Source: a virus
Virus record (IMG/VR): IMGVR_UViG_3300006853_000045
Span: 1-31,546 of that record
Length of the DNA: 31,546 nt
Strand: one strand, 5' to 3'
Shown here: positions 17,133 to 24,134 of the stretch, one piece after another
Position numbering within the stretch: the stretch's first letter is position 1
Layout of the letters: each line of letters starts with the position of its first letter
Made by a program: the position numbers and the translations under genes
Notes under the pieces: model-generated
The model's input: only the letters and a program-made list of their open reading frames with translations
Databases searched by the model: none
Told to the model about the DNA's origin: nothing

Positions 17133-17828
17133 ATGACCGTCACTGACATTCAGCGGCGACTGGCGGAGCTTGGCATCTACGCCGGCGCCGTGGACGGCAT
17201 CAGCGGCAAGACGACCGTCGCCGCGATCCGAGCCTTCCAGCGCGTGCACGGGCTGACGGCGGACGGCATCGCCGGGCCGAAGACGCGGGCGGAGATGTTC
17301 CCCGCGCCGATCCCGGAGCGCGATGTCGATCCGCCGGACGATCCCGGCCGGACACAGCACGAACAGATGTGGCCACGCCAGAAGGACGTGGCCTCTTTTT
17401 TTGGCGAGGTCGGCAAGCACCAGACCATGCTGGAGTTGCCATACCCCATGCGCTTGGCCTGGGATCTGCGCCAGCCGGTGAAGCGGTTCTCCATCCACGA
17501 GAAGGTGCATGACAGCGCGCTGCGGTGCTTCCAGCGCATCGCGGATGCCTATGACGCCGAGGCGCGCCGGCTGACTGGCATCGACCTGTTCGGCGGCTGC
17601 CTCAACGTCCGGAAGATGCGGGGCGGCTCGTCGTGGAGCATGCATAGCTGGGGCATCGCCATCGACTTCGACCCCGCCCGCAATCAGCTTCGCTGGGACC
17701 GCACGAAGGCTCGGCTGGCTTTGCCCGACTGCCGGACGTTCTGGCAGATCTGGGAGAGCGAGGGTTGGGTCAGCTTGGGACGGGCGCGTGACTACGACCA
17801 CATGCATTGCCAGGCGGCGCGGCTGTAG
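17133..17828 (+). CDS. Endolysin: peptidoglycan-binding domain plus M15 peptidase
   Basis: A 231-aa protein. Residues 4-55 are a peptidoglycan-binding 1 domain (DIQRRLAELGIYAGAVDGIS, then AIRAFQRVHGLTADGIAG). Residues about 90-231 form a VanY/M15-type zinc peptidase with SMHSWGIAIDFDP, giving zinc ligands H171 and D178. The C-terminal DYDHMH gives D222 as likely catalytic acid and H225 as third ligand. It would cleave peptide cross-links such as L-Ala-D-Glu in the cell wall. No signal peptide, so release depends on a holin; candidates lie downstream (18306, 18838) with spanin genes. Confidence 0.87.
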   Translation: MTVTDIQRRLAELGIYAGAVDGISGKTTVAAIRAFQRVHGLTADGIAGPKTRAEMFPAPIPERDVDPPDDPGRTQHEQMWPRQKDVASFFGEVGKHQTMLELPYPMRLAWDLRQPVKRFSIHEKVHDSALRCFQRIADAYDAEARRLTGIDLFGGCLNVRKMRGGSSWSMHSWGIAIDFDPARNQLRWDRTKARLALPDCRTFWQIWESEGWVSLGRARDYDHMHCQAARL

Positions 17829-19044: not shown

Positions 19045-19410
19045 CTAACGCCGACCACGCCAGATTGTTGCAGCGCGTTCGCCCTGCTTGCGGTCCAGCG
19101 TCTGCATAGCCCATGCGCGCCATTCTTGGTTCGGCCGTTCGCCTTCGAGAAGCGCGTCACATCCCATACCAGCTCCGATGATTAGGGCCGCAGCACGAGA
19201 TGCAGTTTCGGCACCATGTTTTGCCACAACGCGAGGGGCATATCGGGCCGGGTTCTGCACGAGACCACAAACGAAGCCTGGGAGCTTCACCTCAAGCGCG
19301 GGGCAATCGCTGCCGGGGCCGAACACAATCTGACCCAGCGGGCATCTGCGATCGACGCAGCAACCGCCGCAATTGTTGCAGGGGCTTCCGTGCGGCGGCT
19401 TCGATAGCAT
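19045..19410 (-). CDS. Cysteine-rich putative metal-binding protein
   Basis: A 121-aa protein. The ATG at 19410 has GGAGGAG upstream. The N-terminus has CNNCGGCC (C11, C14, C17, C18) followed by C23, C36 and C48, a CxxCxxCC-like arrangement seen in zinc- or iron-chelating YkgJ-type proteins. The rest is helical with GAETASRAAALIIGAGMGC and EWRAWAMQTLDRKQGERAA. No enzyme motif. The start overlaps the stop of the upstream gene (TGATG). It is the last gene of the leftward operon. Confidence 0.65.
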   Translation of the reverse strand: MLSKPPHGSPCNNCGGCCVDRRCPLGQIVFGPGSDCPALEVKLPGFVCGLVQNPARYAPRVVAKHGAETASRAAALIIGAGMGCDALLEGERPNQEWRAWAMQTLDRKQGERAATIWRGRR

Positions 19411-19613
19411 CACTCTCCTCCCGTCGCCTTCGGGAAATGGCAGACGTAAGGCCCCCACCCATCCGCCTTCCACTCGCCTTTCGCGTTGATGCAAGCAAGG
19501 TGGAGGTCATTGACGGATGTCGGGCCATCACGCTGGACGGTGCAATATGAGAGCGGCGCGACAACCGCGAAGACAATAAGAGCCACGCCCGCCAGTAATC
19601 CGAAATCGGACAT
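19410..19613 (-). CDS. Small single-pass membrane protein
   Basis: A 67-aa protein: N-terminal hydrophobic segment MSDFGLLAGVALIVFAVVAP (uncleaved anchor or signal), followed by a polar domain with three cysteines (C24, C41 and C58) including LHLACINAKGEWKADGWGPY. GGGGGAGAA precedes the ATG. Outer domain probably periplasmic. Function is unknown; the position in an operon with a glycosyltransferase suggests an envelope role. Confidence 0.6.
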   Translation of the reverse strand: MSDFGLLAGVALIVFAVVAPLSYCTVQRDGPTSVNDLHLACINAKGEWKADGWGPYVCHFPKATGGE

Positions 19614-19615
19614 TC

Positions 19616-19909
19616 CTATTCTCCCCCTCCCGCCCTATTGACGGCCGCCACGGCGAGGCACTCCGGCGCCAGCAGCATCGTCTCGTTGGGCTCTTCGTCT
19701 GCGGGCTGATGCTCGTTCGCATTGCGGCAGATCCTCTCCGCCTCAGCGCGCGTGTAGCGGCCGGCATGCGACAGAATCCAGGTATAGCCCCGGCTGTGCG
19801 GTGCCCAGAAGCGGCAGTGCTCATGAGACCAGATGACGAACATCAGATCTGTCGATTGGCTTTCGGCTTCGCCGGGAAGATCCATCCAGTGTTTCAATCT
19901 GCTCACCAT
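19616..19909 (-). CDS. Conserved phage protein with WAPHSRGYT motif
   Basis: A 97-aa protein. I choose the ATG at 19909, which overlaps the stop of the 31-aa gene (TGATG); an upstream GTG at 19927 is possible. The middle section FVIWSHEHCRFWAPHSRGYT and AGRYTRAEAERICRNANEH fits a small phage family of unknown function in which W-x-x-E/H-x-x-x-FW-x-P-x-x-x-GYT is the signature. C-terminal part is acidic and variable. Confidence 0.65.
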   Translation of the reverse strand: MVSRLKHWMDLPGEAESQSTDLMFVIWSHEHCRFWAPHSRGYTWILSHAGRYTRAEAERICRNANEHQPADEEPNETMLLAPECLAVAAVNRAGGGE

Positions 19910-20004
19910 CACTTCCATCCCAGCCACGCCAGAAATGCACCTCCGGCCGTGATCGCCACCACCAGATAGACCGCGATCCAGAGCTTGTAGTCGTCGTCAT
20001 CCAT
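19909..20004 (-). CDS. 31-aa membrane peptide
   Basis: A tiny frame, MDDDDYKLWIAVYLVVAITA followed by GGAFLAWLGWK: acidic N-terminus, one membrane helix, C-terminal Lys. It overlaps the glycosyltransferase stop by 8 nt and its TGA overlaps the next ATG by one base. Such exact coupling on both sides supports it as a real gene. Function unknown; it might assist membrane association of the neighbouring glycosyltransferase. Confidence 0.5.
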   Translation of the reverse strand: MDDDDYKLWIAVYLVVAITAGGAFLAWLGWK

Positions 20005-20971
20005 GGCGGGTGCCCGTCAGCTTGCGCCAGCGCTTGACGATCGACCGCTTCCAGCGCGTCAACGGCTTGCCCTTCTCCGCTTTGCGGAGCTGGTGATCGG
20101 CGCCATTGGCCTTGATGGCCTCGATCACATCGACAAGGCATCTGCGGCTTTCCTCCGACCCTCCCGGCTTGCGCTTGTTCTGGGTCGATGCCCAGATGCC
20201 ATCGGAGAGCCAGGCGTTGTCGGCATGGGCGACGCGGTAGATGAGAGGCCGGGTAAGGCGCAGCGTGCCGCCGAGCACATGGGCACCCTGGGCGAGGTAT
20301 GAATCCGCCGAGCCCCGATAGCCCAGCTCGCGATGCGGGCGCATGACGTCGAGCGCCGCGCGCCGGAACATCATCGCGCTGGTGGAAGTCCAATGCCAGC
20401 CTTCGACATGGGGCCCGATCCAGAGCGTCTGATGCACGACGGTCGGCGGCACCACCGCGCGGCCGGTGCGCGCGTCCTTCTCCAGGAACTCGATCGGCAG
20501 CGTGCTGTAGACGCCGGTGATCTGGGTGCCGTTATGGACGATCCGCTGCTCGCAGCAGGCGATGGGGGTGAAGACGGCTTCGCCCAGGTGGGCATCGGCC
20601 ATCTCGGCAAGGAAGGTCTCGTCATAGCGGTCGTCGGGGTCCAACAGGCAGACGAACTCGCCGGTGGTGGCGTCGAGCCCGGTGAAGAAGGCTGGGATCT
20701 GTCCGCCGTTCTCCCGGGCGATGAAGCGGATGCGCGGCTCCTTCATCTTCATCACGATGGTTTCTGCTGCCAAGCGATGGCCGTCATCGGAACCGTCATC
20801 GACCACGACGCATTCCCAATTCTGATGGGTCTGGTCGAGCAGCGACAGCAGCGCGTCGGGGAGGTGGTCGGAATAGTCGTGATGCGTGACGACGATGGAG
20901 ATCAGCGGGTTGTGCCACTTGCCTCTGTCAAGGTGCTGCGGGGCAGCGGCGGGGACCATGGTCAATTGCAT
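19997..20971 (-). CDS. Family 2 glycosyltransferase
   Basis: A 324-aa GT-A fold enzyme. Residues 24-63 carry LISIVVTHHDYSDHLPDALL and WECVVVDDGSDD, the nucleotide-sugar binding start of GT2. The metal-binding DXD equivalent is LLDPDDR (residues 109-115). The C-terminus is basic (RWKRSIVKRWRKLTG), with no membrane helix. It would transfer a sugar from a nucleotide donor to an unknown acceptor such as host O-antigen or capsule, or a phage component. AGAGAGG lies seven bases before ATG. Upstream gene is LuxR-type. Placement outside the virion and replication modules fits a lysogenic-conversion gene. Confidence 0.85.
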   Translation of the reverse strand: MQLTMVPAAAPQHLDRGKWHNPLISIVVTHHDYSDHLPDALLSLLDQTHQNWECVVVDDGSDDGHRLAAETIVMKMKEPRIRFIARENGGQIPAFFTGLDATTGEFVCLLDPDDRYDETFLAEMADAHLGEAVFTPIACCEQRIVHNGTQITGVYSTLPIEFLEKDARTGRAVVPPTVVHQTLWIGPHVEGWHWTSTSAMMFRRAALDVMRPHRELGYRGSADSYLAQGAHVLGGTLRLTRPLIYRVAHADNAWLSDGIWASTQNKRKPGGSEESRRCLVDVIEAIKANGADHQLRKAEKGKPLTRWKRSIVKRWRKLTGTRHG

Positions 20972-20992
20972 GACGGCCTCTCTCTTGTGTGA

Positions 20993-21340
20993 TCAGGCTG
21001 CGTTCGCTTCGATCGCCGGAAGTTCCATTCCCGCGGCGACCATGGCGCGCTCGAATTTCAGCACCGCTCCGACGAGCGTTCTGCACCCCATGCGCTCAAT
21101 CAGTGCGCCTCGGTGAATCTCGACGGTCCAGGACGAGAGCCCCATCACACGCGCCGCGCCCTTGTTGGTGTGCTCGCCGTGGAGCAGGATCAGCACCATC
21201 ATCTGCGTCTTCGTGATGCGCAGTTCGTCCTGGACTTGGCGCAACGATGCGACTTTCGCTGTCAGCTCGCGCCATCCCCGCTGCCATTCTTCGGTCTTGT
21301 CGATGGCCAGATAGGGATTGCCGCTATAGGGACCTCGCAT
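20993..21340 (-). CDS. LuxR-type HTH protein
   Basis: A 115-aa protein starting at 21340 with AAGGAGG seven bases upstream. Residues 42-98 form a LuxR/GerE-type HTH: ITKTQMMVLILLHGEHTNKG, then AARVMGLSSWTVEIHRGALI ERMG. There is no receiver or ligand-binding domain. The N-terminal 40 residues are helical with EWQRGWRELTAKVASLRQ. It could control phage or host genes, with the glycosyltransferase 21 nt downstream as the nearest candidate. Comparable stand-alone HTH proteins are common in phages, but targets are unknown. Confidence 0.75.
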   Translation of the reverse strand: MRGPYSGNPYLAIDKTEEWQRGWRELTAKVASLRQVQDELRITKTQMMVLILLHGEHTNKGAARVMGLSSWTVEIHRGALIERMGCRTLVGAVLKFERAMVAAGMELPAIEANAA

Positions 21341-21371: not shown

Positions 21372-21578
21372 TCAGGCGGCGCGGTCGTTATGGCCACTGG
21401 CCCGCGCCGCCGTTTCATCCGCAGGGACATCGGGGTGCCCCTGTTTCCCGCCAGTGGTGTCGGTGAGTTCAGCTTCCATCCGCTTCGCCCATCGCGCCTG
21501 CCGGCAGAAGAACCAGGCGGCCGCAAGGCAGAGCCCGATCCAGAAGATGCCGATGGCGATGAGATCGGCGGAGGTCAT
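21372..21578 (-). CDS. 68-aa membrane protein
   Basis: The ATG at 21578 overlaps the upstream stop by ATGA. Residues 4-23 are hydrophobic (ADLIAIGIFWIGLCLAAAWF), then a basic stretch (CRQARWAKRMEAE) and a polar tail. One membrane helix, N-out/C-in by the positive-inside rule. Function unknown. Confidence 0.6.
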   Translation of the reverse strand: MTSADLIAIGIFWIGLCLAAAWFFCRQARWAKRMEAELTDTTGGKQGHPDVPADETAARASGHNDRAA

Positions 21579-21895
21579 GACGTCGGCGCGTGGGATTTGA
21601 GGGAGCGGATGCCAGCCAACAGGCATTGCCTCGAGGCATTCACGAGGGCGAGCGCCTCCTGCTCCGTGAGCTTGCCTTCAAGGGCCGGGCCAAGGGTGAT
21701 GCCCTTGATCTCGGAGGAGAGATAATGCTCCACCTCCTCGAGGGCGCGAGCGCAAACGGCAGCCGCGCCGGCTTCCCACATTCCTTTGACGCCCGGCAAT
21801 TCGTTCTCCCAGGGCGTGGCGTCTTCGAGATATTCCGAGGCGAGGAAGGTCGATCCGCCCTCGTAGTTGATCTGCCCCAGCGTCTTTTCGCTCAT
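21575..21895 (-). CDS. Hypothetical 106-aa protein
   Basis: The ATG at 21895 has GGAGAGG seven bases upstream and gives MSEKTLGQINYEGGSTFLAS; the longer upstream frame is Pro/Arg-rich and non-coding in look. The protein has EYLEDATPWENELPGVKGMW and a helical second half (CARALEEVEHYLSSEIKGIT, LTEQEALALVNASRQCLLAG). Similar small proteins occur in phage early regions, with no assigned function. ATGA overlap with the next gene. Confidence 0.6.
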   Translation of the reverse strand: MSEKTLGQINYEGGSTFLASEYLEDATPWENELPGVKGMWEAGAAAVCARALEEVEHYLSSEIKGITLGPALEGKLTEQEALALVNASRQCLLAGIRSLKSHAPTS

Positions 21896-21965: not shown

Positions 21966-22280
21966 TTATTCAGATCCGCCCTGGGACGCCCCGACAGGCC
22001 CGCCCGTGGGATTGGCGTCCTCGCCATGCGCCCAGCAATAGGCGGTGATGGTGGTCGGGACGACATCGGCATTGCAGCCGCCCGCCTTGGCGACGGCCTC
22101 ATAGCTCGCCTTGCCCGCCGCGTTGTTGGCGCGCACCGTGGCGTCGACCTGGTCCTGCGTGGTGCCCTCCGACACGACGACGGTCGTGCTATGCGGCATC
22201 GGCTGGAACTTCGTCTCAGCGAAGGCGGATACCCCCCCCAGCGCGATGACGACGGATGCGAGAACGATGGATTTCTTCAT
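21966..22280 (-). CDS. Exported 104-aa protein
   Basis: Clear Sec signal peptide MKKSIVLASVVIALGGVSAF with AFA cleavage site (about residue 21). The mature part has two cysteines (GGCNADVVP and TAYCWAHGE) and an acidic Gly-rich end (EDANPTGGPVGASQGGSE). It would be periplasmic, perhaps disulphide-bonded. RBS AGAGGG precedes ATG. It is the first gene of the leftward operon, so its promoter must be within 22281-22457. Function unknown. Confidence 0.65.
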   Translation of the reverse strand: MKKSIVLASVVIALGGVSAFAETKFQPMPHSTTVVVSEGTTQDQVDATVRANNAAGKASYEAVAKAGGCNADVVPTTITAYCWAHGEDANPTGGPVGASQGGSE

Positions 22281-22450
22281 TGGGAAGTCCCTCTAAGTAA
22301 GATTGATGCAAATGCCCTCCCTGATGAGAAGGGCGGCCCAGGCCAGGGAGCAGGTGGCGCTGGACCGCCGAGAGACCCGACCCCGCGATCGCCATGATCG
22401 GCACGGATCTCTCAAATTGCCCGGGGAGCGATCCAATGCCGGGCAAACTC

Positions 22451-22505
22451 AGAAAAAGGGAAGCCCTCGGTGGATAGACGGGGGCGAGGGCTCCGAGGGC
22501 TTCCC
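22451..22505 (-). terminator. Leftward intrinsic terminator
   Basis: A perfect 13-bp inverted repeat, GGGAAGCCCTCGG (22458-22470) and CCGAGGGCTTCCC (22493-22505), encloses a 22-nt loop. On the minus strand the stem is followed by TTTTTCT (plus-strand AGAAAAA, 22451-22457), making an intrinsic terminator for transcription coming from the integrase and crossing attP. On the plus strand there is no U-run. The next leftward operon begins 170 nt further on. Confidence 0.8.
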
Positions 22506-22863: not shown

Positions 22864-23009
22864 TAAGTGCTTGATTTTACTGAGGTGGGATAACTGGCGG
22901 TTTGCAGCTAAGCTCTTGATTTGCTTAGCGCTTGCGTCGGTTTAGCAAACCGCCGCCTTCAGCCTCTCGGCCACCGCTCCGTCGTACTTAAGCTACTGAT
23001 TTACTTGCG
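22864..23009 (+). repeat. Three interspersed arm-type direct repeats
   Basis: TAAGTGCTTGATTTTACTGAG (22864-22884, 21 bases), its relative TAAGCTCTTGATTTGCTTAG (22909-22928), and TAAGCTACTGATTTACTTGC (22989-23008). All three face the same way, 45 and 80 bases apart. They flank the tRNA-like core on both sides, as expected of integrase arm-binding or Xis sites. Confidence 0.65.
22937..22980 (-). other. tRNA-Ser(GCU) 5'-half fragment (integration core)
   Basis: On the minus strand from 22980 the sequence reads GGAGCGGTGGCCGAGAGGCT then GAAGGCGGCGGTTTGCTAAA and CCG: acceptor strand, D-arm and anticodon arm of a tRNA-Ser with anticodon GCT (within TTTGCTAAA). The variable arm, T-arm (GTTCGA) and CCA end are absent; the sequence after CCG is phage repeat sequence. 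It is therefore not a working tRNA but the phage copy of the target gene. The anticodon stem-loop, CGGTTTAGCAAACCG on the plus strand, is the natural strand-exchange region. Confidence 0.75.
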
Positions 23010-23066: not shown

Positions 23067-24134
23067 CTAATCGATTGTGCCGATCGACGCAATCCATGAT
23101 CGCTCCATTTTTTCGACGGCCTCGTCATTCAGAGCGCGGGTGCGTGCCATATAGGTATCGATGATTTTCTCGATGTGCTTCATCGAGTGGCCGGTGATGG
23201 AAGCGATCTGCGCATTGGTGCATCCGTTCTCGGCAAGCACCGTGATGGCAGTACCGCGCAGGTCGTGGAAATGCAGGTGCGAAAGGCCGGCGCGGTTCTT
23301 CGTGGCGCTGAACTTCGTGCTGAAATGACTCTCCACCCAGGGCTGGCCTGTGACGGTCGTCAGGATCGGCTCGTCCTTATGCGGGATGCGTCCCAGGGCG
23401 AGTTTGGCGGCGTCGAGTGTCTCTTTCAGCATGCGCGTGCAGCGCGCTGGAAAACGGATTTTGCGACCGCCCTTGCGGTTCGTGACCATGATCCGCTCGC
23501 CGTCGTAATCGGCCCAGGCAATGCGGATGAGGTCGCCTTCGCGGCGGCCGAGGTGGAGCGCCATGATCAGCGCCAGGCGCATCGGCCGGTTCGCCTCCGC
23601 CATGCAGGCGTTCACGTCTTCTATGGTCCAGATCGCGTCGGAGCGATCTGCCTTGTAGGCCTTGGCGAGGCCGAGCAGATAGTTCGCGCTGAGGAGCGAT
23701 GAGTCCACGGCATAGCTGACCACCACGCTCATGGTCGCCCGCGTCAGGTCCGCCTGGCGTGGCCCGATCGTCTCGACGAGCTGGGAGTGCCACTTCTTGA
23801 TGTCGCGCCGGATCAGCTTGTCGTCGAGCGCGGCGAGCGGCAGATCGGCCCAGCCATCCTCGATGGTCTTGCGATGCTTCAGATAGTCTTTCTTGGTCCG
23901 ATCGCCGAGCGATTTGAAGGACTGCGAGCCGAAATACTCGGCGACGGCATCGGCGAACATCTCCGCCTGCGCCTTGGCGCGCTTGGCGGCTTTGTCGTAA
24001 GACACCTGGAATTCGAGCGTGCCCGGCTCGCCCTCGATGCGCTTGCCTGTGAGGCGGTGATAGTAATGGATGCGCCAGGTGCCGTCCGCGAGCTTCTTGC
24101 GGACCTTGTTAACGTGCTTGAGCCGCACTTGCAT
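23067..24134 (-). CDS. int: Tyrosine-recombinase integrase
   Basis: A 355-aa phage integrase. The N-terminal half includes an arm-binding region and SAM-like core-binding domain (EYFGSQSFKSLGDRTKKDYL). The catalytic domain has R198 in ALHLGRREGDLIRIAW, K221 in the beta-hairpin (TNRKGGRKIRF), H290 and R293 in HFHDLRGTAI, H316 in ITGHSM and nucleophile Y328 in IIDTYMA. All expected residues are present, so it should be active. It would recombine attP with a tRNA-Ser gene. It is the last gene of the leftward operon; the attP repeats begin four bases after the stop. The start overlaps the excisionase gene by 26 nt. Confidence 0.93.
   Translation of the reverse strand: MQVRLKHVNKVRKKLADGTWRIHYYHRLTGKRIEGEPGTLEFQVSYDKAAKRAKAQAEMFADAVAEYFGSQSFKSLGDRTKKDYLKHRKTIEDGWADLPLAALDDKLIRRDIKKWHSQLVETIGPRQADLTRATMSVVVSYAVDSSLLSANYLLGLAKAYKADRSDAIWTIEDVNACMAEANRPMRLALIMALHLGRREGDLIRIAWADYDGERIMVTNRKGGRKIRFPARCTRMLKETLDAAKLALGRIPHKDEPILTTVTGQPWVESHFSTKFSATKNRAGLSHLHFHDLRGTAITVLAENGCTNAQIASITGHSMKHIEKIIDTYMARTRALNDEAVEKMERSWIASIGTID

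Follow-up and report, generated by a model that had tools for sequence, protein, structure and literature searches.

A LuxR-type regulator and a GT2 glycosyltransferase in one phage operon: a candidate cassette for lysogenic conversion of the host surface

What a LuxR-type DNA-binding protein and a glycosyltransferase (GT) do side by side in a phage genome is the question raised by the window studied here, the whole stretch of 31,546 nucleotides taken from IMG/VR record IMGVR_UViG_3300006853_000045. The original prediction placed the two genes in a single phage operon at 19997-21340 and took it for a lysogenic-conversion cassette that modifies host surface sugars and possibly blocks the receptor of the phage's own tailspike or fibre. 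A lysogenic-conversion (moron) operon, in which the GT2 enzyme alters a host surface polysaccharide under regulation by an HTH-only LuxR protein, is a reading that we judge to have about an even chance of being correct. In the cytoplasm the GT2 enzyme would transfer a single sugar from a host nucleotide-sugar to the core or a lipid-linked precursor of host LPS, capsule or EPS, while the HTH-only LuxR protein would control the cassette or host surface genes. The surface of a lysogen expressing the cassette would be changed, and this could protect the cell from related phages; surface glycan change is known to block phage adsorption (PMC11436027). If this is true, lysogenic conversion of surface structures extends to a group of phages, probably infecting Alphaproteobacteria, that has been little studied. 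The cassette would be a recognisable type of phage cargo, ordinary in kind and moderately interesting in its detail.

Extent and content of the operon

The predicted operon is present but longer than first drawn, running from about 22280 to 19045 on the minus strand, where about nine small genes follow one another closely in a row. The row starts right beside attP, is co-directional with the integrase (int) and early genes, and is convergent with the lysis genes. Its members, and the endolysin gene beyond it, are as follows.

21966-22280 (-), small exported protein of 104 aa with a signal-peptide-like N-terminus and two Cys
21575-21895 (-), 106-aa protein, function unassigned
21372-21578 (-), 68-aa single-TM protein (hydropathy), its start overlapping the stop of the 106-aa gene
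20993-21340 (-), LuxR/GerE HTH-only regulator of 115 aa (PF00196)
19997-20971 (-), soluble GT2 glycosyltransferase of 324 aa (PF00535; DPD motif, without a TM helix)
19909-20004 (-), 31-aa single-TM peptide overlapping the GT 3' end (translation and hydropathy)
19616-19927 (-), 103-aa protein (phrog_7674) with a counterpart at the same cassette end in the sister phage described below
19410-19613 (-), 67-aa single-TM or exported protein (hydropathy)
19045-19410 (-), 121-aa cysteine-cluster protein (CNNCGGCC; translation), last gene of the cassette
17133-17828, endolysin (lysis genes), on which the cassette converges

The central pair is as predicted: open reading frames and Pfam agree on a receiver-less LuxR-type HTH protein (PF00196) upstream of a GT2 enzyme (PF00535), with ATG starts for both and 21 nt from the LuxR stop to the GT start. 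The small membrane or exported neighbours are likewise found, one protein having a signal-peptide-like N-terminus and three a predicted membrane helix, with hydropathy as the sole basis for helices and signal peptide. Opposite LuxR and GT lie overlapping plus-strand ORFs with a shifted phase pattern. Both minus-strand ORFs are supported as coding by a GC3 (0.85 for GT, 0.77 for LuxR) that matches phage core genes (0.72-0.88) and by the RBS-like purine runs that precede them (AAGGAGG before LuxR). A 47-kb IMG/VR contig (IMGVR_UViG_3300050509_000199) carries a copy of the operon that is 100% identical over the compared stretches.

Family searches assigned no family to the 104-aa exported protein, whose structural model is of too low quality for use (mean pLDDT 47), and gave no match for the 121-aa CNNCGGCC cysteine-cluster protein. 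A search of Rfam returned no family. PADLOC gave one 14-bit match to a defence system, which was taken as chance.

Attachment site and leader region

The integrase and the cassette are separated by a gap of 788 nt that contains the attP core and the following further elements.

23067-24134 (-), tyrosine integrase of 355 aa (phrog_1 integrase, E=1.6e-36)
22938-22980 (-), attP core, the 5' half of tRNA-Ser(GCT) through the anticodon
22602-22630 (-), promoter-like site TTTTCA-17-TATAGT (consensus scan), before the hairpin
22458-22505 (-), 13-bp perfect hairpin (inverted repeat), then TTTTT (T-run read in the sequence)
22300-22440 (-), structured cassette leader with two strong hairpins (alignment and folds)

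The 43-bp segment at 22938-22980 matches, at 97.7% identity, the 5' half of a tRNA-Ser(gct) gene from Azospirillum that ARAGORN confirmed, and is read as attP, with integration at tRNA-Ser(GCT). Because it lies between int and the cassette, the cassette would sit in the prophage at the end opposite the integrase; such a location, next to att and convergent with the lysis genes, is usual for lysogenic-conversion cargo. Together with the plasmid homologues of GT and LuxR, the tRNA match points to an alphaproteobacterium as the probable host.

Lying between the cassette and int/attP, the hairpin is probably an intrinsic terminator or an attenuator; it faces the cassette (22505-22458) and would probably stop transcription arriving from the int side or the host side. 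The promoter-like site ahead of it is weak, one such site being found against 1.5 expected by chance. The leader (22440-22300) is conserved in the sister phage, at L086 4500-4620 (+), where it again lies upstream of an exported-protein gene. Its fold is not clearly more stable than those of shuffled sequences (z -1.2), and apparent compensatory changes in its hairpin were rejected as covariation, since they are an artefact of the pairwise alignment, which is shifted there. Another hairpin, 3' of the exported-protein gene (window ~21950-21910), is conserved in both phages. The position by attP and int, the convergence with the lysis genes and the presence of a leader of its own behind a terminator-like hairpin all argue for a conversion cassette.

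The glycosyltransferase and its regulator

The glycosyltransferase matches PF00535 with E=1.5e-21 (77.5 bits against a cut-off of 23.3) and carries a DXD-type motif within LLDPDDRYD, in columns conserved in homologues. Its predicted structure is confident at about residues 21-130, with the C-terminal half poorly modelled, and Foldseek matches this core to the GT-A cores of heparosan synthase, CgT, SpsA, WrtF and TarP. No TM segment was found by hydropathy. The closest near-full-length homologues found lie on plasmids (34% identical in Gemmobacter and 31% in Paraburkholderia, by alignment), where they adjoin ATP-grasp amidoligase genes and, in Gemmobacter, further GT genes; a genome scan for GT returned distant GT2 enzymes only. 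From the GT2 family and from homologues beside polysaccharide-type genes, glycan modification can fairly be inferred; that it would block the phage's own receptor, as the original prediction suggested, is more conjectural.

Temperate phages carry P22/Sf-type gtrABC clusters, which include a GT2 enzyme, as cargo close to attP. The window enzyme is likewise a temperate-phage GT2 near attP, and its best match in PHROGs is a GtrB-like O-antigen conversion family, but it has none of GtrB's C-terminal membrane helices and stands beside a LuxR HTH gene. GtrA (PF04138), the flippase, is absent from the window, the 47-kb copy and the sister phage, with positive controls, and no second (GtrC-type) glycosyltransferase was found. 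With no membrane anchor and neither of these partners found, the cassette was rejected as a Gtr system, and a better parallel for GT lies in the soluble GT2 enzymes that some prophages encode singly, TarP being one. Encoded by prophages of Staphylococcus aureus, TarP is a single GT-A/GT2 enzyme and acts on a surface polymer, wall teichoic acid (PMC9650247). The window enzyme resembles it as a single prophage-type GT2 with TarP among the Foldseek matches of its core, yet the target of TarP is a Gram-positive wall teichoic acid and only about 112 core residues align. We know of no regulator neighbour of TarP.

A soluble GT-A enzyme, this homologue context and the lack of a GtrA or thymidylate-synthase family gene make transfer of a single sugar onto a host surface glycan the most likely activity. 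Much of the same evidence fits general auxiliary metabolism, in which the changes made by GT to exopolysaccharide or biofilm would serve the fitness of the host and not phage exclusion: the homologues lie in plasmid clusters with polysaccharide-type genes, and the cassette position agrees with it as with conversion. Sequence cannot separate the two, which differ in the benefit alone; we consider the auxiliary role unlikely.

The regulator has a C-terminal GerE HTH (PF00196, E=4e-7, 30 bits against a cut-off of 23.5), and its 115 aa give no Pfam match to a receiver or autoinducer-binding domain at E<=10. Matches on plasmids fall mostly in the HTH region of response regulators from Alphaproteobacteria and of proteins related to these. 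The protein most likely controls the cassette or host surface genes, and it may do so by activating the cassette or by interfering with host regulators of the same type. The LuxR N-terminus was also considered as RMF/CrpP-like for a stretch (NPY..W..GW, window 21331-21266 (-)) that weakly resembles ribosome modulation factor; this reading is weak, at 14 bits for PF04957 against a cut-off of 27.9, over 23 positions, with the motif absent from the sister LuxR. Two other phages encode HTH-only GerE-like proteins of about 90 aa (L100 7851-8123 and L101 9230-9499), both in the terminase/structural region; detached LuxR HTH proteins thus occur in other phages.

LuxR and the small genes might instead resemble the TF-smORF modules and act as a lysis-lysogeny switch, with GT as a passenger. 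Several small ORFs do flank LuxR in the window phage, and in Aeromonas phages LuxR-type receptors and small proteins control induction (PMC10432266, PMC6456758). Those phage receptors, however, bind autoinducers through an N-terminal domain, and in TF-smORF modules the LuxR protein acts with XRE partners on a counter-oriented smORF (PMC6456758, PMC10432266). The window protein shares with them a phage-encoded LuxR-type HTH, but it has neither an autoinducer-binding domain nor an adjoining XRE partner, and the small genes and GT are co-directional with it. Such a switch appears improbable here.

The sister phage and the exchanged gene

A single near relative was found, the sister phage IMGVR_UViG_3300037470_000304, with an endolysin 77% identical to that of the window phage. 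A 127-bp overlap between the two ends of its contig shows that the 58,537-bp map is complete. As in the window phage, the cassette lies between an integrase and convergent lysis genes, and its frame is conserved: an exported protein (L086 4640-4999) is 54% identical to the 104-aa protein, a LuxR homologue (L086 6043-6384) is 31% identical to the window regulator, and the counterpart of the 103-aa protein shows 38% identity (E=2e-12). The 106-aa protein is without a match to the gene at L086 5718-5999, and the window integrase matched nothing in the sister loci then fetched or by integrase scan.

The gene that follows LuxR in the sister phage, in the slot held by GT in the window, encodes an outer-membrane beta-barrel protein (OMP; PF13505, E=1.1e-19), and a search of the whole sister genome found no GT2 gene. 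The OMP gene stands about 150 nt from LuxR and so may be a separate transcription unit. A beta-barrel in the GT slot lends further support to the conversion cassette of the original prediction, and the type of gene swapped, in one sister phage, suggests a cell-surface role. In lambda lom-type morons an outer-membrane protein gene is lysogenic cargo; the sister slot is alike in this, whereas the window phage has GT instead. If lysogenic conversion is the right reading, two ways of altering the surface swap behind one small regulator, which offers a testable design for superinfection exclusion. A more specific proposal, which we make tentatively and rate well below an even chance, is that an HTH-only LuxR protein without a signal domain governs a conserved attP-side slot for an exchangeable surface gene (GT or barrel), perhaps wired to host FixJ/NarL-type regulation, such that surface conversion would track host physiology.

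The exchange also bears on the alternative that the acceptor of GT, in lytic growth, is a phage product, for instance a virion protein (tail fibre, capsid). The acceptors of GT2 enzymes are not predictable from sequence, and the operon is co-directional with early genes, as this would allow; GT nonetheless lies outside the structural genes, and the sister phage, which has no GT2 at all, fills its slot with an outer-membrane protein. Given the GT-to-OMP swap, a surface role is more probable than glycosylation of virion or DNA, and we give the virion alternative a low probability. Some phages glycosylate modified bases, but DNA-base glycosylation, also raised in the original prediction, is highly improbable in this case, as no thymidylate-synthase/dCMP-hydroxymethylase family gene was found in the window, the 47-kb copy or the sister phage.

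Scans for further relatives of LuxR used short peptide patterns, which miss distant relatives. They gave none in genome contigs or phage records and, in IMG/VR, the identical copy and the sister phage only; no other record was found to share both LuxR and GT. Integrase and RecT searches returned the identical copy only. At 64 loci with endolysin relatives, neither GT nor LuxR lies within the fetched flanks, and LuxR is also absent from the 40 whole records tested. Relatives of the 103-aa protein were rejected as further sister phages, being otherwise unrelated phages without synteny.

The sister cassette has two further features. Between the OMP gene and the 103-aa-type gene it encodes a cold-shock domain protein and an XRE-type HTH protein (L086 7447-7725 and 8476-9048). 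An exact 27-nt repeat (L086 5659-5685 and 6003-6029) precedes two consecutive cassette genes, the second of which is LuxR, and may be a duplicated leader or a site at which recombination exchanges genes.
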